The notes under the pieces were generated by a model that did no database searches, had not been told where the DNA came from, and saw only the letters and a list, made by a program, of their open reading frames with translations. Below, piece after piece: positions 12,847-48,052 of a stretch of DNA of 64,000 bases (the first letter of the stretch is position 1; each line of letters starts with the position of its first letter). The DNA comes from a virus: positions 21,257 to 85,256 of IMG/VR virus record IMGVR_UViG_3300037087_000181. One strand, 5' to 3'. The position numbers were made by a program, and so were the translations under genes.

Positions 12847-12878
12847 TTTGGTAGTTTCATTTATTCGTCTTACATTTG
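12847..12878 (+). promoter_or_regulatory. Full -33/-7 promoter
   Basis: TTTG at 12847-12850, exactly 20 bases, then TACATTTG at 12871-12878. It lies inside a possible upstream extension of the next frame, which places that gene's real start at ATG 12895. Confidence 0.65.
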
Positions 12879-12894
12879 GGGAAAATTAAAGATT

Positions 12895-13080
12895 ATGTTT
12901 TATTGTAGTAAATGTGCAGAAGAAAATGATTATCCAATAACATTTATAAATTCTTATGGTGAGTGTGAAATTTGTAGAAAAGTTACTTTATGTAATGAAT
13001 GTCCAAGTTTACGTCTTCCTGAAAAGGGAAAATATGGGTGTGGAATAGATACCATAATAGAAACTCCCGCTAAAGAATGA
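12895..13080 (+). CDS. Small zinc-ribbon protein (61 aa)
   Basis: Start chosen at ATG 12895 (MFYCSKCAEEN) because the promoter at 12847-12878 lies upstream of it; the frame could be extended to 12802 but would then cover the promoter. Cys pairs YCSKC and CEIC, with a further LCNECPS, form a likely treble-clef/zinc-ribbon. The segment ending CNECPSLRLP is a familiar small phage protein pattern of unknown role. Own promoter and terminator make it an independent unit. Confidence 0.65.
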   Translation: MFYCSKCAEENDYPITFINSYGECEICRKVTLCNECPSLRLPEKGKYGCGIDTIIETPAKE

Positions 13081-18733: not shown

Positions 18734-18741
18734 TATCTTTG
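18734..18741 (+). promoter_or_regulatory. -7 box TATCTTTG before leader element
   Basis: TATCTTTG with a TTG 20 bases upstream (18711-18713). Transcription would start about 18746 and read the leader and the small basic gene. Confidence 0.65.
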
Positions 18742-18760
18742 TTGTCACTATTCGACAGAT

Positions 18761-18817
18761 AAGTATTAATAATTAAAAACGGAGGTCGCCATGAAGTAAA
18801 ACCAATACTTCAGTTAA
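18761..18817 (+). promoter_or_regulatory. Leader with two exclusive hairpins and a two-codon ORF
   Basis: GGAGG at 18781-18785 is followed, 5 bases later, by ATG AAG TAA (18791-18799). The arm AATACTT (18804-18810) can pair with AAGTATT (18761-18767), enclosing the Shine-Dalgarno site. Alternatively TACTTCA (18806-18812) pairs with TGAAGTA (18792-18798), which includes the mini-ORF. The two cannot form together. A strong Shine-Dalgarno is rare in Bacteroidota, so this looks like a translation-sensing leader, but that is inference. Confidence 0.45.
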
Positions 18818-18958
18818 ATGGCAAAGAAAAAAGACGGTAAGGGCAAAGGGACAAAGAAATATGGTCGCAACAAACGCCCTGTAAATTCCGCAATGAGTTC
18901 TTACGTCAGAGGGAAAATAACCTTTGAGAGTTATCAAAAACAAAACAAGTCTACCTAG
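18818..18958 (+). CDS. Small very basic protein (46 aa)
   Basis: ATG 18818 to TAG 18958. Lys/Gly-rich N-terminus (MAKKKDGKGKGTKKYGRNKR) and a short amphipathic C-terminus (SSYVRGKITFESYQ). Likely binds nucleic acid or the packaged genome. Supported by its own promoter 75 bases upstream and a terminator 28 bases downstream, which would otherwise enclose nothing. Family not recognised. Confidence 0.6.
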   Translation: MAKKKDGKGKGTKKYGRNKRPVNSAMSSYVRGKITFESYQKQNKST

Positions 18959-21798: not shown

Positions 21799-22131
21799 AT
21801 GAAGACAAGTAAAATAGTTTTATTATCAGTTGCCGGATTTGTTTTTCTTTTACTCCTTGGTTTAGGGTTGGGATATTATGGAGTATTTGCCACAAAAACA
21901 GTAGGCAAGGCACAGCAGAACGCCAACAGGGAGGTCTTTGAACAGACACAGAGTTATGTTGAAGGGAAAAGGCAAGAACTACAAAAGGATTATCACGAAT
22001 GGTTGAATACGAAACCAGAAGATAAGGTGGCAATTGAAGGAATTATAAGATCAAGTTTCGCAAGTTTTGATGAAGATAAATATTTAACTGGCGATTTATA
22101 TAACTTCCTTCATAAAATAAAAAATAAATAA
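21799..22131 (+). CDS. Membrane-anchored helical protein (110 aa)
   Basis: N-terminal membrane anchor (residues 6-30, hydrophobic with GLGLGYYG), then a soluble helical domain: TVGKAQQNANREVFEQTQSY, VEGKRQELQKDYHEW, and a C-terminal SFASFDEDKYLTGDLYNF. This domain pattern often follows the lipoprotein type seen just upstream in phage genomes (from memory). Translated 5 bases after that gene and closed by a terminator, so the two form one cassette. Confidence 0.65.
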   Translation: MKTSKIVLLSVAGFVFLLLLGLGLGYYGVFATKTVGKAQQNANREVFEQTQSYVEGKRQELQKDYHEWLNTKPEDKVAIEGIIRSSFASFDEDKYLTGDLYNFLHKIKNK

Positions 22132-22156
22132 TTACTAAACCTTATGTATCAATGAG

Positions 22157-22189
22157 AGGGGACGGTCAAAAACGACTGTCCCTTTTTCT
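22157..22189 (+). terminator. Rho-independent terminator
   Basis: GGGACGGTC/GACTGTCCC stem with one G-T pair, AAAAAC loop and a TTTTT tail (22159-22187). Confidence 0.9.
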
Positions 22190-22192
22190 TGC

Positions 22193-22200
22193 TATCTTTG
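22193..22200 (+). promoter_or_regulatory. -7 box TATCTTTG before second HNH gene
   Basis: GC-TATCTTTG-CA, 18 bases before ATG 22219. It overlaps an upstream extension of the frame (TTG 22189), excluding that start. Confidence 0.7.
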
Positions 22201-22218
22201 CAGAAGAATAAGATAATC

Positions 22219-22890
22219 ATGTGTGATATTCCAACAAAAGTTTGTTCTAAGTGTAAAATAGAGAAGCCTATTGATTGTTTTCATAAGAAAACAGCCAACA
22301 GGGACGGGCATAAGGCGGAATGTAAGGAGTGTATTGCAAAAGACGCCACTGTTTTTTATAAAAAAAACAAAGAAAGGGTTAATAAGGTTAAGAAAATATA
22401 TTATAACGCTCATAAGGAACAGTATTTTAAATATGGGAAAAAAGAAGGAAAGGTTGAGTATCAAAGGGATTATCGTAAAAGACATAAAGAATCATTAAAG
22501 GAATATAGTAGGGAGTATCGTAATAAAAATCGGATTCCCTTGAATGCAAAAAGACTTGCCAAGAAAAAAACAAATATTAATTTTATGCTGGCATGTACGC
22601 TCCGAAATGAGATATACAATGCTGTTAAAAAAAGCAAAAAGATATATAAGATGAAGGAGGTTCTTGGTTGTTCTCTTGATTTCTTAAAACAACACATTGA
22701 ATCTCAGTTCACAGAGGGTATGACATGGGAAAACCACGGAAGGTTTGGCTGGCATATTGATCATGTTCTTCCATGTAAGTCGTTTGACTTATCTGACTCA
22801 GAACAGCAGAAAAGGTGTTTCAATTGGAGTAATTTACAACCGCTTTGGTGGTATGACAATATATCTAAAGGTGCAAAGATAGTCGCATGA
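22219..22890 (+). CDS. HNH endonuclease (paralogue of 16019)
   Basis: Same plan as the first HNH gene: N-terminal four-Cys zinc module (VCSKCKIEKP...GHKAECKECIAK), a basic linker rich in Lys, Tyr and Arg, then the nuclease core WHIDHVLPCKSFDL with the catalytic DH and a closing DNISKG. Start at ATG 22219. It overlaps the following giant tail gene by 4 bases. Probably a free-standing homing or packaging-associated nicking enzyme; target not visible. Confidence 0.85.
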   Translation: MCDIPTKVCSKCKIEKPIDCFHKKTANRDGHKAECKECIAKDATVFYKKNKERVNKVKKIYYNAHKEQYFKYGKKEGKVEYQRDYRKRHKESLKEYSREYRNKNRIPLNAKRLAKKKTNINFMLACTLRNEIYNAVKKSKKIYKMKEVLGCSLDFLKQHIESQFTEGMTWENHGRFGWHIDHVLPCKSFDLSDSEQQKRCFNWSNLQPLWWYDNISKGAKIVA

Positions 22891-36246: not shown

Positions 36247-36500
36247 AGATAATTTTATTTATATTATTTTCATTAGGAGTTTTTGCTCCACAGAGTGGTA
36301 GAGCGTGGATCATGTACCCTAATCCCGCTAAAGATCATGTAACAATAGAGATGACAGATGGGGTAATGCCTAAGTATGTGAAATTCTATGATATAAATGG
36401 GAAAGTGGTTTTAAGGGTGGCAACAGAGGGAAGATTAATTATTAGAATAAATTTTCATCTCATGTCGGGTAGGTATATTGTAAATCTGGAGGATAACTAA
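36243..36500 (+). CDS. T9SS sorting-domain-like small secreted protein (85 aa)
   Basis: N-terminal signal peptide (MKIILFILFSLGVFAP) and then YPNPAKDHVTIEM, KFYDINGKVV and GRYIVNL, the pattern of the type A sorting domain that directs proteins to the type IX secretion system in Bacteroidota. Normally this is a C-terminal domain on a cargo, not a protein of its own. It overlaps the stop of the beta-helix spike by 4 bases, as if it had been split from or captured next to it. Confidence 0.55.
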   Translation: MKIILFILFSLGVFAPQSGRAWIMYPNPAKDHVTIEMTDGVMPKYVKFYDINGKVVLRVATEGRLIIRINFHLMSGRYIVNLEDN

Positions 36501-37093
36501 TGTCACGTCAAATTGATCTCATAGCTTCAAGCAATGGTGAACACTACGTTTTATTTGGATTTAATGCCAATGAGTTAAGTTCCTTTAGTATAATGTTTTG
36601 GATCACACATTATGGTGTAAGAGCTTTGGATTGGGTACAGGCATTAAGCCTCGGATTTTGTTCTTTTCTAGGTGGCGATATATGGGTTCATAATTCCACG
36701 GAAGTGCCAAGGAATAATTTATTCGGACAACAGAGAAATTCAGAGGTCGGAATAGTCGCTAATCAAAATGCAAATGAGATAAAGATTCTTGATGCTATCG
36801 GGATACATAGTGATGGGGCTTGGTCGGTGGATTCTATTACCATCCCAAAAACGCTTAATCAGCCCAATGGTATGTATAGCATGATCCCTAAAGAACGATT
36901 TAAGAAAAGAGAAGGCGTTTGGCAAGCAGAATTTTTGAGAAATATGAAAACAACTTCAGGAGCGGCATTGGCAATAGAAGCCATTAAGGGAGAAGTCCTT
37001 CGTGGATATAGTGCATTTTTGGTGTTAAAGAATACGGATAATACTGAGGTTAAGCTTTTTAAGGTTAATCTTGGAATGACCAAATCGAGGTAA
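36500..37093 (+). CDS. Putative tail/virion protein (197 aa)
   Basis: Shares its start base with the stop of the previous gene. The sequence has SLGFCSFLGGDIWVHN, a QPNGMYSMIPKERFKKREG block and GEVLRGYSAFLVLKN, which I recall from the C-terminal parts of tail-nozzle proteins in related phages. It may be the separated C-terminal domain of that protein type. No signal peptide, so it belongs with the virion genes. Confidence 0.5.
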   Translation: MSRQIDLIASSNGEHYVLFGFNANELSSFSIMFWITHYGVRALDWVQALSLGFCSFLGGDIWVHNSTEVPRNNLFGQQRNSEVGIVANQNANEIKILDAIGIHSDGAWSVDSITIPKTLNQPNGMYSMIPKERFKKREGVWQAEFLRNMKTTSGAALAIEAIKGEVLRGYSAFLVLKNTDNTEVKLFKVNLGMTKSR

Positions 37094-39297: not shown

Positions 39298-39349
39298 GTG
39301 AATGGAATATTACGAAGATTTTGAAAAAATTATTGAGTGGACAAAACTT

Positions 39350-39514
39350 ATGAATAAGATTAAAACTCAAATTTTGGATTTAGCATCTCCTAAAAATTGG
39401 ATAGAAGATTATCCACACGAGAATGGAAATTATGTTAATAAGTGTATCCAATGTGGAGAGTTCTTTCTTGGGCATAAAAGAAGGGTGATTTGTAGAGAAT
39501 GTCAAACATCGTAA
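39350..39514 (+). CDS. Small zinc-finger protein (54 aa)
   Basis: The start at 39350 (MNKIKTQILD) is preferred, since ATG 39302 would leave no untranslated leader after the promoter; the 70-aa version remains possible. Cys pairs KCIQCGEFF and ICREC, with His between, form a likely zinc finger around GHKRR. The DYPHENGNYVNKC lead-in is a pattern I recall from small phage proteins. Probably nucleic-acid binding; role unknown. Confidence 0.6.
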   Translation: MNKIKTQILDLASPKNWIEDYPHENGNYVNKCIQCGEFFLGHKRRVICRECQTS

Positions 39515-39543
39515 ATAGCACCTAATCAATAATAAAGACCATT

Positions 39544-40005
39544 ATGGACAAATCGGTATTAACTTTATTAAGAGAAAACGGGCATTACATTGTTGAAAAT
39601 GACGTTTTTTCTGACAGGGAGGGGCGAAATTGGATATTGCATGGTATGTTGGGAAATAATAATTTCACGCTTTCTTGTTTAGATGATACCTTATGGACGG
39701 AAGTTACCTTAAAGGAATTAAGAGAAAAATACACATTCAAATGCGATGCACTTGTTATTTTAAATTCTCCCGAAATTCAAGGGAATCTTTCACGGGCTAA
39801 TCCTATAAGGAATCTTCCAATATATATTGAACATCTAAAAGAACCATCTATTGTGGCACAAATATTGGATGATTTAAAGGCTGAAATGCAGAAAGATTCT
39901 CCGTGGATAGAAGAAGAGGCAATAGATGATTTTTTAAAAACATACGGAGATGGTTTTGTGAAATTTGCGGCACTTTATAATGGACATGACCCCGCAAAGA
40001 ATTAG
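39544..40005 (+). CDS. Hypothetical protein (153 aa)
   Basis: Not recognised. Soluble, acidic, mixed fold: N-terminal helix and beta strands (FSDREGRNWILHGML), a middle PIRNLPIYIEHLKEP and C-terminal helices. Shares the accessory promoter with the zinc-finger gene. The absence of virion-like repeats suggests a host-takeover or lysogeny role, but that is a guess. Confidence 0.45.
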   Translation: MDKSVLTLLRENGHYIVENDVFSDREGRNWILHGMLGNNNFTLSCLDDTLWTEVTLKELREKYTFKCDALVILNSPEIQGNLSRANPIRNLPIYIEHLKEPSIVAQILDDLKAEMQKDSPWIEEEAIDDFLKTYGDGFVKFAALYNGHDPAKN

Positions 40006-40035
40006 TGATATTAAAACGCTTTAAATAAAAAGACT

Positions 40036-40043
40036 TATCTTTG
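40036..40043 (+). promoter_or_regulatory. -7 box TATCTTTG upstream of structured RNA
   Basis: GAC-T-TATCTTTG-CA. No start codon with a meaningful frame follows for 465 bases; instead the structured region begins. This is the main reason to think it transcribes an RNA. Confidence 0.65.
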
Positions 40044-40047
40044 CACC

Positions 40048-40440
40048 GGAAAATTAATCCTATGCGAGATAATTTGACACATAATCAAATAAAGATACTG
40101 GACTCCGTAGAGAGTTGTGTTGCGTTCTATTCGCATAGGATTCTATCAACCAACTTGACACGGAGTTCTTATGACTTATTCTCTCCGATTGCTAATTTCA
40201 TTTAGCAAAATCAAAGCAACGTAGTGGTTTATGGGATACCCAATGCGAAAAGAAGCTGTGTGACAGCCTTGAATGAAAGACAATAGCATTGGGATGGAGT
40301 ATAAAAGCGGTAGTCGTTGACAACAGGAGGGGAAACAAGTCCGCACTGGATTAATAAGAAACAACAGTTAAGGGGTACTCTCTTAAACCACAGTCTTCGG
40401 AAGCACCAAGAGAAGGGCATCTCTACATTCAAGGGATTTC
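40048..40440 (+). ncRNA. Candidate large structured noncoding RNA with pseudoknot
   Basis: About 390 bases with no convincing gene, its own promoter, and G+C of 41 percent by hand count (148 of 360), against 26-35 percent by eye in the following gene start. A compound hairpin pairs 40100-40108 with 40160-40168 and, after a 3x3 internal loop, 40112-40117 with 40151-40156. The loop of this hairpin contains 40131-40140, a perfect 10-base complement of 40058-40067, giving a pseudoknot. Further helices: 40072-40077/40085-40090, 40189-40195/40202-40208, 40239-40246/40286-40293 enclosing AGCTGT-GTG-ACAGC, and long-range 40224-40231/40384-40391. No known RNA class is recognised. Confidence 0.55.
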
Positions 40441-40480
40441 ATTCTTCTTTTGTGCTATTTAAAGGTTTGCCAAAAGTGAC

Positions 40481-40488
40481 TATCTTTG
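40481..40488 (+). promoter_or_regulatory. -7 box TATCTTTG
   Basis: GAC-TATCTTTG-TA, 20 bases before ATG 40509 of the giant gene. It gives that gene a start independent of the RNA promoter. Confidence 0.65.
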
Positions 40489-40508
40489 TAATCTATTAAT
40501 AATCCTTC

Positions 40509-43500
40509 ATGGAAGATAAAACACAACAACTATTTAATCTTTTAAATGAGTCTAAGGATTTCAAGGGTGCATTCAAAACCCCTGAAGAGTTAACCGCTAC
40601 ACTTTCTGATGAAACTAAGGTTGGTGCGTTATATTCATTGCTTAACGAGAGTGCTGATTTCAAAGGAGCATTTAATTCAATAGATGAGTTTAAAACATCA
40701 TTTGATATAAAAAAAAAAGTTTCTTCACAAGATGCGCTCACTTCTGCTTCGGGCAAAGAGGAACTTCCTTTATTAGATCAGTTAGGGCAAAAGCCACAGG
40801 ATTCCTTAACTCAACCATCACAGTCAACATCGGCTGAACCTGTTCAAAAAACAGAAGCGTTCACGTTCCCTGAACAAGCACCAATAATTGAACAACCAAG
40901 GGATGCCACTAATGTTAATATAGTACAAAGGACATCTTTGCCTACACCTCCCGAAACAGTAATGCGCCAAGGTAGAGGTCTTAAACCAGAAAATTTAGGG
41001 GAATATATTAAAGCCTTTGGTGGAACTCTTAACAGAGCCTTTGAAGAAGTACCCAAACTTGCCGATTGGATTCAGTCGACTGCTAATGATGCTGTTCTAC
41101 AAACTGTATATGGATTACCCGTGGCACAACAAGCACAGAAATTAAGAGCAGCAGGATTTGATTATTCTACTGCATTATCAACCGATCCAATGCAGCGTCC
41201 ATTTGGCATGATAGCTGATCTTCTTGAGGGTTGGACAGACAAAACCGTTGGGAAACTTGTATTACCACAAGGTAAGGAAAAGGGTGGTGTTATTGGTGAC
41301 ATAGCAACGGGTACGGCAAATGTATTACCCGATATTGCCTACGCATCAGTCCTTGCAACAGCAATGCCAGAGGTATTGGCGTTAAAAGCCATAGAGATGG
41401 CAACAGGAATAAACCTTGCGAGCAACTTTGGATTTGAACAGGGAATCAAAACTGCCGTAAGTAAATCTCAACAATTTGAAAATGGCGGTAATCTACAAAA
41501 GGTTCTTGCACCCGCAGTTGGGATGATAGAGGGTTATGCCCAAGGGTATTTCTTTGCGAATATGAGTACGAAAGGCAATGAGATAGGAAAGTCCATTGCC
41601 GATCAGGTTATGCCCAAAGTGACTACTGAAAGTCAGGCAATAAACAAAGCCATAATCCAAACAGGGGGGGCTACTGTAAGTACAGCAGGCATGTTTGGTG
41701 GATGGGGAGTACTTGATGAGTATAGAAGAACTGGGCAAGTTTCAGAGGATACTTTCTTATCCAACGCAGGACAGGGAATGGTGTTTGGTACAAAAGACCC
41801 ATTAAGAATGTTGCTTTCTAAAGGTGTGATGGCTTTTGTGGGCGCACCAAGACAGATGATTAATGATATAGCCAAGAGCGATATCCCCGCAGAAGAACAC
41901 GCTAAAAACGCACATGAAAAGTTTGATGCCGTAGCCAATGGAACATCAGCCAATCCCGAATCAGACCTTGCATCAGGTAAATTATCAATAAACACAGCCA
42001 TTTTAAAGGCTACTACAGAGCAGGTTTTAAATAATAAGGATGGGTTAATTTTAGCAGTAAAATCATCTACTTTTGAAACAAAAATTAAGGATGCTATTAT
42101 TGATAAAATTAATGCTATTGATGCCGACAATGACACTAAAATACAGGCTACAAAAGATATTACTGATAAAATCTCTAAGATTGATGATGCATTAAGTAAT
42201 ATAAGTGGTAATAATTCATGGGATGATGTCAGGAAAGAGGTTGAGTCAGCCCCGCTAAAGGAAAGAAAAGAAGAACTCAAACAGGACGCTAAAAAAGTCT
42301 ACGGTATTGAGCCTAAAGAACAGCCAAAAGGGGAAGATGGAAAGGTTAAGGAAAAACCGAAGGCAGTACAGACAGAATCGTCACAGAAATTTTTAGATGA
42401 CCTTGATAATTATAAGTTGGGTGACAAAACCTTCAAAAGTAAAGAAGACCTTACTAATTGGTTAGATAAAAACTACAATGAGAACGACAGGTTTAGTTCT
42501 GTCAACGAAGAAGGTTATCTTGAACCTAATACCATGAAAGTCTTTAACGAGTGGTATAAGGGTAATAAAGATAGGCTCGCTAAAGAAGAAATGGATCGCA
42601 TAGATAAAGAAAACCAAATTAATACACAGGAGGGAACACAAAATGCCAGTGAAAATAGAACATCAGATAGCCAACTCCCTGACCAAGGCACATCCGAATT
42701 GGAGCAAGGAAAAGGTAATGTCGACAATGTGGGCAACAATGAACAAAAAGGGACTACTCAAGAAGAAGTAAAACCAGTTGAAAATTCTATGTCTGATTCT
42801 AAGGATATCCCAAAAGGGGTCGAAGAACAGGTAAAGGAATACAAGAAACCCGGAGAGCTTCAAAAAGGATGGGAAGAAGCATTGCCCAATGTTCCTAAAA
42901 AAGAAATTGGCACATTAGACGATGGACGTAAAGTATCTATCGTTAATGGTACTGAAATGCGCAACAAGGTTTATACTAATTTCACGGAAGGGGGTAATTC
43001 TCATGCTTATCCGTGGATGAATAAGGGCGATCTTTTTATCGAAGACGTGGAAAGTGGTGAGGATAAGGTAGCTGATCTTATTCATGAGGCAGAAGAAGAC
43101 AGGGCTATGGATAAGCTTGGCATCTCTTACGATAAGGCACATGAAGAATATGGATTGCCTGCTGAACGAGAATATCGGGATACAGGAAAAATCCCTGATT
43201 ATCTTAAGCCAATAGCAGAATTATTATTAAAAGAACCTGCCGAACCCCTACAACAGCAGGAAAATGTCCCACGGGAGGGTACTATACCCCCAAAAGGCGA
43301 AGGAACTCTTCTAAAAGGTACAGAAGTACCACCGGAACAAATACCCCCTACCGAGCCGCCTATACGGGGGACAGTGGGTAATCAGGATAACCAACGGGAA
43401 AAGGGATTACTTAATAGGATTAAAAAAGCTAAGAATTTCAAGGAATTTGGTAAGGAAATAGAGGAAAAAGGATTAACATACGAGCAAATACCAAATAATG

Positions 43501-46500
43501 CCACGGCAGCACAGGTAGATGCCATGATTGCATCAAGAGGATTAAGACAATCCGAGGCAGATATCCGTAATGAGTCACTTAATATCCCGGACAGGATACG
43601 CTCAATGGGTGCTGTGCAAATACTTGACAAGTACAGGGAATTGGCACGGGACTCCAAAGATGATGTCGAAAAACAAGACTACATAAAACGAGCAGTTGAT
43701 TTAGCTGATTGGGTTGATAAAGCGGGACGTAATTGGGGACAAGCTATACAGGCACTTGCCTCCGAAAGAGTAAATAATATTCTTACTCCTGATATGCAAC
43801 TGCTAAAGGCTAAAAAGATGGTAGACAGTATGCGTCAAAAATTGCTTGATAAAAATGCTGATGACATTGCCACCAAGGGTCAGCAGATGAAAGACATTAA
43901 TAATAATGTTGTAGATCAGGTAATAAATTCTAAAGAATATCAGGACTTAAAGGATAGGGTTGCGGAACTTGAAAAGAAAGTTGCGGAACAAAAGGCAAAC
44001 CAGCCCAAATACAAAGCACGAATAAAACAAATACAGGCAGATCGTGCAAAAGAATGGGATGCATTCTTTAAAAGTTCACAGACTTCTGTATCGGCTATCG
44101 GATTAAGTTCAGAACAAATAGAACACCTTGGTAATATCTTGTCGCTATACGCACAGGAAGGGATTACAAGAGCAGAAGAAATACTCGATAGGTTTAAAAG
44201 GGAATATCTTGAGAAATCAGGGCAAGAACTTGATGATGATAAGGCAAAAGCATGGATAGCAGCGGCACAAAAAAGAAATGAAGAAGGTGGAGTAACAGCA
44301 GATGAACTTGATAATTATGTTGAAGCAAGGGAGAAAGGAAAACAAATTGACCAAATCGTCAAAGACCACTATACTAAACCTGATAAATCAGGAAGAAGTT
44401 TAAAAGAAAAACTTATTGAGGATGGAGGGTTAAAAGATGCAGATGCACAGAAGATAGCAGATAAAGCAGCGAAGAAATTCAAAGACCTTGCTACTCCTGA
44501 GAAGAAGAAAATATTAAAAGGGAAAAACAGCCTTGTAAATAAGATAATAGAACTCACTAATGCGGGAGCATGGGAAGATTCTGATCTAACAGATGCTTAT
44601 GCAAGGGCTTTTGGTTGGCCAAAACTGACAGATGAAAATATTAAAGAGATAACCAGATTGGCCGAATTGGCAGACAAAGCACCCAAAGGAGAACAGAAAA
44701 ATAAAGCGATACAAGCATTGCTCGCCTATCAATCGGCACACATCAAGGGAATTGATTTAGGTGATATAGGTAATGCCCTTTGGTATGCCTCCGCTCTTTC
44801 TGGTCCACATACGCATACGAAGAAAATGTCATCTGAATTACAAACAGTAGGACTCGAGACAATAGTAACTTCTTTGTATCATGCAAATCATCCCGGAGAT
44901 ATTCCCCATTTATTTTCAGCACTTCTGCGTGGATGGGGTGCTGGATATCAAAAAGCACTTGATGTATTAAAAACGGGGTATAACCCAATGAATAAGGAAG
45001 AAACCCCCGCTCTTCTTGAAATGGTTGATTCCCCGATAGCTAAAGTTGCCAGATATGTACAACGTATGTTCGTAGCAGTACAGCAGTTTAATGCAGGGCC
45101 ATCAAGAGAGATACGTGCTACTGAACTAGCTGTAGCAAAAGCGAGGGCAGAGAGACCCAGCGCAACAGAACCAGATAAAACTGATTGGGGGCGTGCATGG
45201 GATATATTGGCAAAGACACCCGAACAAAGGGTACAGTTTGAGCAACAGGCACAAAGTGAAGGATTAAAAGGGAGAGATTATAAACGTAGGGTGTGGGAGT
45301 TAATGGAACAGAATCGCCCCGATGATATAATGGAAAAAGCAGAAGCGTATTCTTTAAGAACTACATATATGGGACCACCCGAAGGACTCCTCGGTATGTT
45401 TGCTCACAAGATAGGACAAATGACTACTGCGGCTAGTGGAACTATACCAATACCATTTACCAAAAAAGAATATACACTCTATCCATTAAAGAGGATAGTT
45501 CCTTTCACCCGAGTATTGGCGAATCTTGGAAATCAGATGCTCGATTATTTTCCGCCTACGGGGCTTGCTCGTGCTGGCATTGGAAGCATGGGGGTATCTG
45601 GAATGAATAAATATCAATTTTCTAAGGGATATTACCGCAAATATACTCCTGAAGAAAGAGGAAAAGAAGCCATGAAAGGGTTAATCGGGATGGCAACTAT
45701 TGCCGGTATATGGGGGTTAACACAATTAAAAGATAAAGATGACAAACCATTCGTAGAAATAACTGCCAATGGCTATGGGAAGGGTGATCCACGCAATGAT
45801 GAATTAAAAAGACTTGGGTGGCAACCATTTTCATTAAGAGTCGGTGATCGTTGGTTTAGCTGGCAACATTCTCCTCTTGCATTAGCTATCGGCCCGTTGG
45901 GTTATTTTGATGATCTTTCAAAATATCACAAAGACGAGTCAGTAGATGATAAGTTTGCAATGAAGGTGGTAAAATGTTATGGAAATTCTATGACTACTAT
46001 TTTTTCTGCTCCTTACATAGAGGGCCTTAATAACTTTTTTGCAGCTATCGGATCAGGTGATCCTAATAAAACGGGAACATATATTTCCAGGTTAGCCTCG
46101 TCAATGGGTAAAAGTGTTGTCTATCCTAAATTAATAGAACAGACAGTACAGACTATTGATAATCTATCGAAAACAACAGAAAAGACGTCATCGGCTTGGG
46201 ATGCACAGATAATTAGAAACATGCCAGTGGCAAGAAATAAACTTAATGCGCTTTATAATTCTTGGGGAGATGAAGTGAAGACGCCCCCTGTCTTTGGTAT
46301 AACGAAGGTCGAACATGATCCTTTCTATGAATATCTTGTTAAAAATAATCTTAATTTAGCCGCACCCCGTCAGAAAGAGCCACATTACGATGATACTAAG
46401 GGTATTCTACGTCCGATGACTGATGATGAGTATGCCGATTTTATCCACAAAAGCGGGCAGGTTATCAAACAAAGGGTACAAAGTGAGGTTATTGACAAAA

Positions 46501-47003
46501 AGTTACCACAGGATGAAGCCGAAAAAGTTAAAAATAATATTTCAGGAGATGAAAGAAATAAATATATAACAGAATTATTCGGCTGGGGACAGTTAAGGCA
46601 AACTCATCCCGACGATTGGAAGGTAATGAAGGATAATGGGGCATTACAGATACCCCCCACGTCTGAACATCTCAAGGTAGGAAAAGAAAAAGTAACCATT
46701 GCCACAGAAGACAAGATTCCGTCAAAAGAACTTGAAACATTTAGAAATGCTGCGATGGAAGAATATCGCAAGAAAGTCATGCCGTATCTTCAGGATGCCG
46801 ATAGAGTAAAAGCCGATAAAAACAAGCCTGCTAAATATGAAACGGGTGAACAAAAGGGTAAAATCATGACAGATGAATATAATAATCCCATAATTAAATT
46901 TAACAATAAAATAAAAGGATTATGGGCAGATGCTCTTGCAAAAGCCAAAGATCAAACCGAAACAATATTAAAGCAAGAGAAAAATACAACAACTCAAAAG
47001 TAA
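40509..47003 (+). CDS. Giant internal virion / polyvalent protein (2164 aa)
   Basis: Largest protein in the window. Residues 7-32 and 40-65 are two copies of a short repeat (LFNLLNESKDFKGAF, LYSLLNESADFKGAF), the same type that opens the transglycosylase-like protein at 11731. Then come a disordered Gln/Pro/Glu-rich stretch, hydrophobic segments near 255-315, and a charged region. Near residues 800-880 is a domain with VYTNFTEGGNSHAYP and LIHEAEEDRAMDKLGISYDK, a module I recall from phage polyvalent proteins (H-E-x-x-E). The C-terminal third has amphipathic and membrane-active helices (about 1722 onward). It fits an ejected protein that crosses the envelope with the genome. Confidence 0.7.
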   Translation: MEDKTQQLFNLLNESKDFKGAFKTPEELTATLSDETKVGALYSLLNESADFKGAFNSIDEFKTSFDIKKKVSSQDALTSASGKEELPLLDQLGQKPQDSLTQPSQSTSAEPVQKTEAFTFPEQAPIIEQPRDATNVNIVQRTSLPTPPETVMRQGRGLKPENLGEYIKAFGGTLNRAFEEVPKLADWIQSTANDAVLQTVYGLPVAQQAQKLRAAGFDYSTALSTDPMQRPFGMIADLLEGWTDKTVGKLVLPQGKEKGGVIGDIATGTANVLPDIAYASVLATAMPEVLALKAIEMATGINLASNFGFEQGIKTAVSKSQQFENGGNLQKVLAPAVGMIEGYAQGYFFANMSTKGNEIGKSIADQVMPKVTTESQAINKAIIQTGGATVSTAGMFGGWGVLDEYRRTGQVSEDTFLSNAGQGMVFGTKDPLRMLLSKGVMAFVGAPRQMINDIAKSDIPAEEHAKNAHEKFDAVANGTSANPESDLASGKLSINTAILKATTEQVLNNKDGLILAVKSSTFETKIKDAIIDKINAIDADNDTKIQATKDITDKISKIDDALSNISGNNSWDDVRKEVESAPLKERKEELKQDAKKVYGIEPKEQPKGEDGKVKEKPKAVQTESSQKFLDDLDNYKLGDKTFKSKEDLTNWLDKNYNENDRFSSVNEEGYLEPNTMKVFNEWYKGNKDRLAKEEMDRIDKENQINTQEGTQNASENRTSDSQLPDQGTSELEQGKGNVDNVGNNEQKGTTQEEVKPVENSMSDSKDIPKGVEEQVKEYKKPGELQKGWEEALPNVPKKEIGTLDDGRKVSIVNGTEMRNKVYTNFTEGGNSHAYPWMNKGDLFIEDVESGEDKVADLIHEAEEDRAMDKLGISYDKAHEEYGLPAEREYRDTGKIPDYLKPIAELLLKEPAEPLQQQENVPREGTIPPKGEGTLLKGTEVPPEQIPPTEPPIRGTVGNQDNQREKGLLNRIKKAKNFKEFGKEIEEKGLTYEQIPNNATAAQVDAMIASRGLRQSEADIRNESLNIPDRIRSMGAVQILDKYRELARDSKDDVEKQDYIKRAVDLADWVDKAGRNWGQAIQALASERVNNILTPDMQLLKAKKMVDSMRQKLLDKNADDIATKGQQMKDINNNVVDQVINSKEYQDLKDRVAELEKKVAEQKANQPKYKARIKQIQADRAKEWDAFFKSSQTSVSAIGLSSEQIEHLGNILSLYAQEGITRAEEILDRFKREYLEKSGQELDDDKAKAWIAAAQKRNEEGGVTADELDNYVEAREKGKQIDQIVKDHYTKPDKSGRSLKEKLIEDGGLKDADAQKIADKAAKKFKDLATPEKKKILKGKNSLVNKIIELTNAGAWEDSDLTDAYARAFGWPKLTDENIKEITRLAELADKAPKGEQKNKAIQALLAYQSAHIKGIDLGDIGNALWYASALSGPHTHTKKMSSELQTVGLETIVTSLYHANHPGDIPHLFSALLRGWGAGYQKALDVLKTGYNPMNKEETPALLEMVDSPIAKVARYVQRMFVAVQQFNAGPSREIRATELAVAKARAERPSATEPDKTDWGRAWDILAKTPEQRVQFEQQAQSEGLKGRDYKRRVWELMEQNRPDDIMEKAEAYSLRTTYMGPPEGLLGMFAHKIGQMTTAASGTIPIPFTKKEYTLYPLKRIVPFTRVLANLGNQMLDYFPPTGLARAGIGSMGVSGMNKYQFSKGYYRKYTPEERGKEAMKGLIGMATIAGIWGLTQLKDKDDKPFVEITANGYGKGDPRNDELKRLGWQPFSLRVGDRWFSWQHSPLALAIGPLGYFDDLSKYHKDESVDDKFAMKVVKCYGNSMTTIFSAPYIEGLNNFFAAIGSGDPNKTGTYISRLASSMGKSVVYPKLIEQTVQTIDNLSKTTEKTSSAWDAQIIRNMPVARNKLNALYNSWGDEVKTPPVFGITKVEHDPFYEYLVKNNLNLAAPRQKEPHYDDTKGILRPMTDDEYADFIHKSGQVIKQRVQSEVIDKKLPQDEAEKVKNNISGDERNKYITELFGWGQLRQTHPDDWKVMKDNGALQIPPTSEHLKVGKEKVTIATEDKIPSKELETFRNAAMEEYRKKVMPYLQDADRVKADKNKPAKYETGEQKGKIMTDEYNNPIIKFNNKIKGLWADALAKAKDQTETILKQEKNTTTQK

Positions 47004-47033: not shown

Positions 47034-47450
47034 ATGGCAGTACTATTAACAAACACAGGAAGTCCGCTTCCATTATGGTTTCGGGATATCCTTTCATATT
47101 CAAGCATAGGAACAGTAGCCATAGACCCGGTAGCTACTTATCAGGCAAGTGCCAAAGCAACATCTAACCTATCTTTGATGAATGAGTATGTGGCTCATGG
47201 CTTTGGCGTAAAGAACGCCACAGACACCGCAGCTTATATCTTTGCTATTACCCTTGCACAGTACGAAAGTTACGTCACGCAAAACAGAGGCATATTACCT
47301 GCAAACTATGTTCTAACTGGTATTACCCCAAGACAGATTCATCTTGCAGCAGGGGAGTGGTGTTTGACTCCAATCGTAAAGGTTTTCGCAGGTAACGCTG
47401 GTGGTGGATTTGCAAGCACAGTTACGGTTGTAAATGTCGGGCTTATATGA
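47034..47450 (+). CDS. Small putative tail protein (138 aa)
   Basis: Starts MAVLLTNTGSPLPLWF; beta-rich with Ala/Thr/Gly/Val, no signal peptide. Contains GFGVKNATDTAAYIFA and PRQIHLAAGEW. Position before a fibre block suggests a fibre-base or collar protein. Its last 4 bases overlap the GIY-YIG gene, which appears to have been inserted here. Two further TATCTTTG strings lie inside it (47170, 47237). Confidence 0.5.
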   Translation: MAVLLTNTGSPLPLWFRDILSYSSIGTVAIDPVATYQASAKATSNLSLMNEYVAHGFGVKNATDTAAYIFAITLAQYESYVTQNRGILPANYVLTGITPRQIHLAAGEWCLTPIVKVFAGNAGGGFASTVTVVNVGLI

Positions 47451-48052
47451 ATCGAGTAGGTGTATATCAAATTAGTTCCATTTGTAAGTCTAATAGGATG
47501 TATATTGGAAGTTCGGTGAATATACAGAAACGGTGGTTAATGCACCTATCACAGTTAAGGATTAATAAACACCACTCTGTTAAACTCCAACGTCATTATA
47601 ATAAATACGGAGAAGAAGATTTATTTTTCTCTATATTATACCAAACAAGAAAGGAAGACGTTCTTTTAATGGAGCAAGTATTACTGGATATACACAAACC
47701 TTATTTCAATAATAGTTATGTGGCGGGCAGTCCACGAGGATGTAAAAGAAGTAAGAAAACAATAGAGAAGCACAGAAAACAAATTATTGGTAAGCCATCT
47801 TGGAACAAGGGTATTCCCATGAGTGAAGAGACCAAAAGAAAAGATAGTGAATCTCATATTGGTAAAATTCCGTGGATGAAAGGGAAACATCATAAGGCGG
47901 AATCAAATCAAAAGAATAGGGATGGCCACCTTGGTAAAAAACATTCTGATTCTACTATTAATAAATTAAAGGAGCGCATTCCTTGGAATAAGGGACTTAA
48001 AAAGAAGAAAGGTGCAATAGGCGTGATTAGTAAAAACAATTTAATACTTTAA
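47447..48052 (+). CDS. GIY-YIG homing endonuclease with NUMOD3-type repeats
   Basis: Residues 1-90 are a GIY-YIG nuclease: GVY, MYIGSSVNIQKRW with the catalytic Arg, and MEQVLLD with the metal-binding Glu. The rest is a string of DNA-binding repeats (SKKTIEKH, PSWNKGIPMSEETKRK, WMKGKHH, PWNKGLKKKKG) typical of NUMOD3-like homing-enzyme tails. Free-standing and coupled to the upstream gene by a 4-base overlap. A mobile element by nature. Confidence 0.85.
   Translation: MNRVGVYQISSICKSNRMYIGSSVNIQKRWLMHLSQLRINKHHSVKLQRHYNKYGEEDLFFSILYQTRKEDVLLMEQVLLDIHKPYFNNSYVAGSPRGCKRSKKTIEKHRKQIIGKPSWNKGIPMSEETKRKDSESHIGKIPWMKGKHHKAESNQKNRDGHLGKKHSDSTINKLKERIPWNKGLKKKKGAIGVISKNNLIL

Follow-up and report, generated by a model that had tools for sequence, protein, structure and literature searches.

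To our knowledge, only a few large structured RNAs have been described from phages, most of them with no assigned function, and the phages of peatland Bacteroidales have been little explored. ROOL and GOLLD, ornate RNAs of phages and prophages, measure about 600-850 nt, often lie near tRNA islands and are represented by Rfam models (PMC12286853). The intergenic sRNAs of Bacteroides, for example GibS, have a promoter of the form TAnnTTTG, the consensus of the Bacteroidota -7 box, and those that were validated mostly end in an intrinsic terminator (PMC7366714). In gut Bacteroidetes, comparative genomics has yielded candidate structured RNAs of 27-219 bp near phage genes (PMC8040213). Here we describe a stretch of 435 bases, inside the otherwise gene-packed virion region of a phage, that probably specifies a novel large noncoding RNA of predicted structure and putative role.

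The window that we analysed is 64,000 bases long and corresponds to bases 21257-85256 of an 85,256-base IMG/VR virus record. PLLX01000048.1 (84,916 bases), from a Bacteroidales MAG labelled fen_983, is the same contig, and the RNA stretch is identical there. The terminase and portal match PHROGs families and are only distantly like those of known Bacteroidota podoviruses (21-24% identity to the references). A neighbouring gene, at 36500-37093, encodes a crAss muzzle C-terminal domain (E 2e-12 to PF25729), from which the tail appears to be distantly crAss-like. Given the binning with a Bacteroidales MAG, the low terminase and portal identity and the muzzle domain, we regard this as a poorly sampled phage that infects Bacteroidales of peatland. 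An integrase is present among its genes, so the phage is probably temperate.

The preceding open reading frame stops at 40005 and that of a giant gene begins at 40509. Between them, 40006-40508 is the sole long gap without coding signal in the first 58 kb (1-58 kb) of the window; the gaps of this phage are otherwise short. The first-pass annotation had seen no gene in about 390 bases here and had held that a conserved reading frame would speak against an RNA; the stretch is noncoding in all six frames. Markov scores across the gap range from -6 to -30 bits per 100 nt, where in-frame phage DNA scores +2.8 to +15.8, and the period-3 signal is about that of shuffles (1.14 vs 1.03; gene windows 2.2-11.4). 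An ATG-initiated ORF of 47 aa at 40063-40206 does lie at a promoter distance usual for the phage, but we rejected it as a small protein gene (Markov score -23.9, no Pfam or PHROGs match). The G+C content is 40.0%, close to the 41% counted earlier by hand, against 28% in the other gaps. The remaining inspected gaps longer than 100 nt in 1-58 kb contain small ORFs or terminators, including those flanked by promoters, which we had considered as sites of further copies of the RNA. Among such places, 12871-13080 is easily mistaken for a gap and has a promoter-like box together with 61 codons for a protein that is cysteine-rich (zinc-ribbon-like), while 18734-18958 holds a 46-codon gene with its own promoter, encoding a small lysine-rich protein without family match and followed by a terminator-like hairpin. 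The features of the locus are as follows:

39302-40005, plus strand: two small upstream genes forming an accessory cassette, with products of 70 aa (paired cysteines) and 153 aa
40036-40043, plus strand: TATCTTTG, a Bacteroidota -7 box (consensus TAnnTTTG), with a predicted RNA start at about 40046-40050
40049-40356, plus strand: predicted folded body, closed by helix P1 (MFE -91.2, z -4.8, 0 of 300 shuffles as stable)
40053-40066, plus strand: 5' strand of P1, ATTAATCCTATGCG, overlapping the 5' strand of S1
40056-40067, plus strand: 5' strand of S1, AATCCTATGCGA, the pseudoknot strand of the first-pass annotation extended by 2 bases
40098-40170, plus strand: compound hairpin S2 (ACTCCGT..AGTTG / CAACT..ACGGAGT), z -4.5 in isolation
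40131-40142, plus strand: 3' strand of S1, TCGCATAGGATT, within the S2 loop, a 12-bp complement of 40056-40067
40166-40346, plus strand: predicted long branched domain including CCCAATGC/GCATTGGG (40239-40246/40286-40293), z -2.5
40341-40355, plus strand: 3' strand of P1, CGCACTGGATTAAT, giving 12 bp interrupted by a 2x2 internal loop
40401-40456, plus strand: 3' hairpin whose 3' arm is U-rich, a possible RNA 3' end (40395-40458, z -3.2)
40481-40488, plus strand: second TATCTTTG box, the predicted giant-gene promoter, with the ATG 20 nt downstream, a usual spacing in the phage
40509-47003, plus strand: giant gene, 2164 aa, a virion-region protein with distant podovirus relatives

The flanking genes have few recognisable kin. 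The giant protein falls into no Pfam family above cut-off, the 153-aa upstream protein is without clear relatives, and the 70-aa gene is preceded by a TATCTTTG box of its own (39290). Second in line beyond the giant gene, at 47447-48052, comes an apparently free-standing gene for a GIY-YIG homing endonuclease with a NUMOD3 motif.

Both boxes reported earlier, one belonging to the stretch and a second downstream for the next gene, are present. TAnnTTTG occurs at 7.1 per kb in gaps vs 0.54 per kb in genes, a 13-fold difference, and because the motif is thus concentrated in gaps, the boxes at 40036 and 40481 are likely promoters. The same TATCTTTG box with its flanks also precedes genes in Bacteroidales genomes. 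From the box at 40036 to the nearest gene start downstream there are 465 nt, the largest such distance among the gap boxes, and the second box intervenes.

The stretch is more stably folded than its shuffles as well as noncoding, the combination by which structured noncoding RNAs are recognised. Its 431 nt give a z of -3.6, and it contains seven perfectly paired helices 8 bp or longer where 1.46 are expected, a number reached in 1 of 400 shuffles. In a coarse scan of the plus strand of the window with segments of 300 nt, 40051-40350 was the strongest fold (z -4.1) and coincides with the P1-closed body; elsewhere in the phage z reaches about -3 to -3.9. The runner-up, 22001-22300 (z -3.85), contains a long hairpin that resembles a terminator (GGGGACGGTC../..GACTGTCCC), with a T-run and a TATCTTTG box behind it. 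The compound hairpin, first placed at 40100-40117/40151-40168, was recovered with 40102-40117 pairing with 40151-40166. The minus strand, judged against its own shuffles, folds almost equally well (z -4.4), and the choice of RNA strand therefore rests mainly on the promoter. The motif CGCAnnGG recurs within 40056-40352 in both orientations (40056, 40131, 40237, 40341), which is why two of the RNA helices share sequence.

The first-pass annotation had described the candidate as pseudoknotted, on the strength of a perfect 10-base complement for which chance was considered unlikely. The complement exists and is longer than described, 12 bp (40056-40067/40131-40142), but the statement about chance was too strong: perfect pairing over 10 bp or more arises somewhere in 83 of 1000 shuffles (8%), and over 12 bp or more in 3 of 1000 (0.3%). 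Among real phage windows, 7 of 293 (about 2%) reach 12 bp or more; the helix in window 39776 is S1 itself, leaving six windows at four other sites. The S1 pairing is unusual, not unique. S1 crosses S2, which makes a pseudoknot possible by sequence, whereas P1 closes the whole body instead and offers the same 5' strand a competing partner at 40341-40355. By nearest-neighbour energies the nested P1 fold reaches -91.2; in the S1 alternative the fold with the S1 arms kept unpaired gives -71.9 and S1 itself -17.4, a sum of -89.3 to which the pseudoknot penalty has yet to be added. The computed energies lean towards the nested P1 fold, not decisively, and S1 would be a putative pseudoknot of the candidate RNA. 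Since the shared 5' strand has two pairing sites, a two-state fold is possible. AATCCTATGCGA might switch between closure by P1 and the 12-bp S1 pseudoknot, and the RNA might be the first-seen member of a new phage RNA class, a suggestion that we offer tentatively and regard as rather doubtful.

On balance, and with some reserve, we favour the reading that the stretch encodes a stand-alone, phage-encoded structured ncRNA, an orphan, within a cassette of small accessory genes. Host RNA polymerase would start the RNA at the TATCTTTG box at 40036 and yield a transcript of about 310-410 nt, in which P1 (40053-40066 with 40341-40355) would close a body enclosing the compound hairpin and the long branched arm, followed by the 3' hairpin at about 40401-40456. 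It would work in trans, whether as folded RNA or as an RNA-protein particle, and would be produced in lysogens or infected cells. Action in trans seems the most likely mode because the RNA lies among small genes with promoters of their own in the virion block, in the manner of accessory ('moron') genes. Of the roles proposed earlier, that of a phage-encoded ornate RNA fits best, as a structured ncRNA with its own promoter, although 'pseudoknotted' was too strong a label; a packaging or ejection RNA found no positive support, the terminase genes being more than 30 kb away.

Among the alternatives, the best placed is that the stretch is a structured long 5' leader, as the first-pass annotation had also proposed: transcripts from 40036 would continue into the giant gene and the fold would control the amount of protein. 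The giant gene is on the same strand and directly adjoining, and we found no clear intrinsic terminator on the plus strand, either near 40401-40456 or between the RNA and the giant gene. Furthermore, 40348-40366, which overlaps the 3' strand of P1, can pair with 40487-40505 beside the start codon (-7.1 kcal/mol), but this pairing is weak and AT-rich. The proposal is weakened by the separate TATCTTTG box 20 nt upstream of the giant-gene ATG, and for most other own-promoter genes of the phage the leader is no longer than about 80 nt. We consider a leader unlikely.

Relatives of the stretch were sought widely. Rfam 15 cmscan gave nothing at gathering across the window, and at E up to 5 the region 39980-40540 yielded just two spurious minus-strand matches, SNORD47 and Esr41. 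ARAGORN found no tRNA in the 64-kb window (of the 85-kb record). These searches agree with the earlier view that the candidate is not a tmRNA, RNase P, group I or II intron or 6S RNA. blastn of the stretch against phages, plasmids and 117 family genomes returned promoter fragments, which sit before or within ordinary genes, or chance matches only. A sequence model (R1) gave noise in 395 Bacteroidia genomes (at most 20.6 bits, the best 14 matches mostly inside long reading frames). The covariance-model search that the first-pass annotation had recommended was carried out with a structured model (R2, from 40166-40346) on 393 Bacteroidales genomes and related phages, and it matched its own copy alone. 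In eight scans of IMG/VR no record reached besides its own contains the stretch, and the neighbour proteins had no relatives; TerL relatives lie on short contigs not extending to the RNA. The giant protein has one relative there (L027, 30% identity), whose gene is preceded by no gap, and the RNA is therefore not a fixed partner of the giant-gene family.

This lack of relatives showing conservation, in Rfam, IMG/VR, reference phages, plasmids and sampled Bacteroidales genomes, would suit a stretch that is no functional RNA at all: a non-functional insert, a decayed accessory gene, or a protein-binding DNA element with inverted repeats. The inverted repeats fold on either strand (z -4.8 and -4.4), the related CGCAnnGG motifs are repeated, and 12-bp repeats are matched elsewhere in the phage. 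Nonetheless, there is no coding remnant in any frame, the stretch has its own promoter box, its G+C exceeds that of other gaps and its helix content that of shuffles, and the phage otherwise keeps its gaps short. This explanation ranks next after the leader, and we likewise think it improbable. An unrecognised ribozyme or retroelement RNA (a group I/II intron relic, a retron or a diversity-generating template) is very improbable indeed: the size, closing helix, possible pseudoknot and GIY-YIG homing endonuclease gene would suit it, but the stretch interrupts no gene and matches no such Rfam family at E up to 5. We also rejected a retron or diversity-generating template since the 85-kb record has no RVT_1 (control genomes were positive), and a retroelement since the window holds no second copy or variable repeat.

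Returning to a stand-alone structured ncRNA as the preferred reading, an RNA kept under its own promoter by a coding-dense phage points to a selected role in trans. Compared with the gut Bacteroidetes candidates, the fen-phage candidate is known from one sequence, with no homologues for comparison; it resembles them in being intergenic, structured and in a phage neighbourhood. It differs from GibS-type sRNAs in lacking an intrinsic terminator and any sequence match, and shares with them its intergenic position and its own TAnnTTTG promoter. By Rfam 15 cmscan, the stretch was assigned to none of the ROOL, GOLLD, OLE, HEARO and raiA families. The tRNA-island location is usual, not obligatory, for ROOL and GOLLD; the candidate, at about 310-410 nt, lies in a virion block with no tRNA in the window. 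Nonetheless, like ROOL and GOLLD, it would be a large structured RNA, possibly pseudoknotted and carried by a phage.
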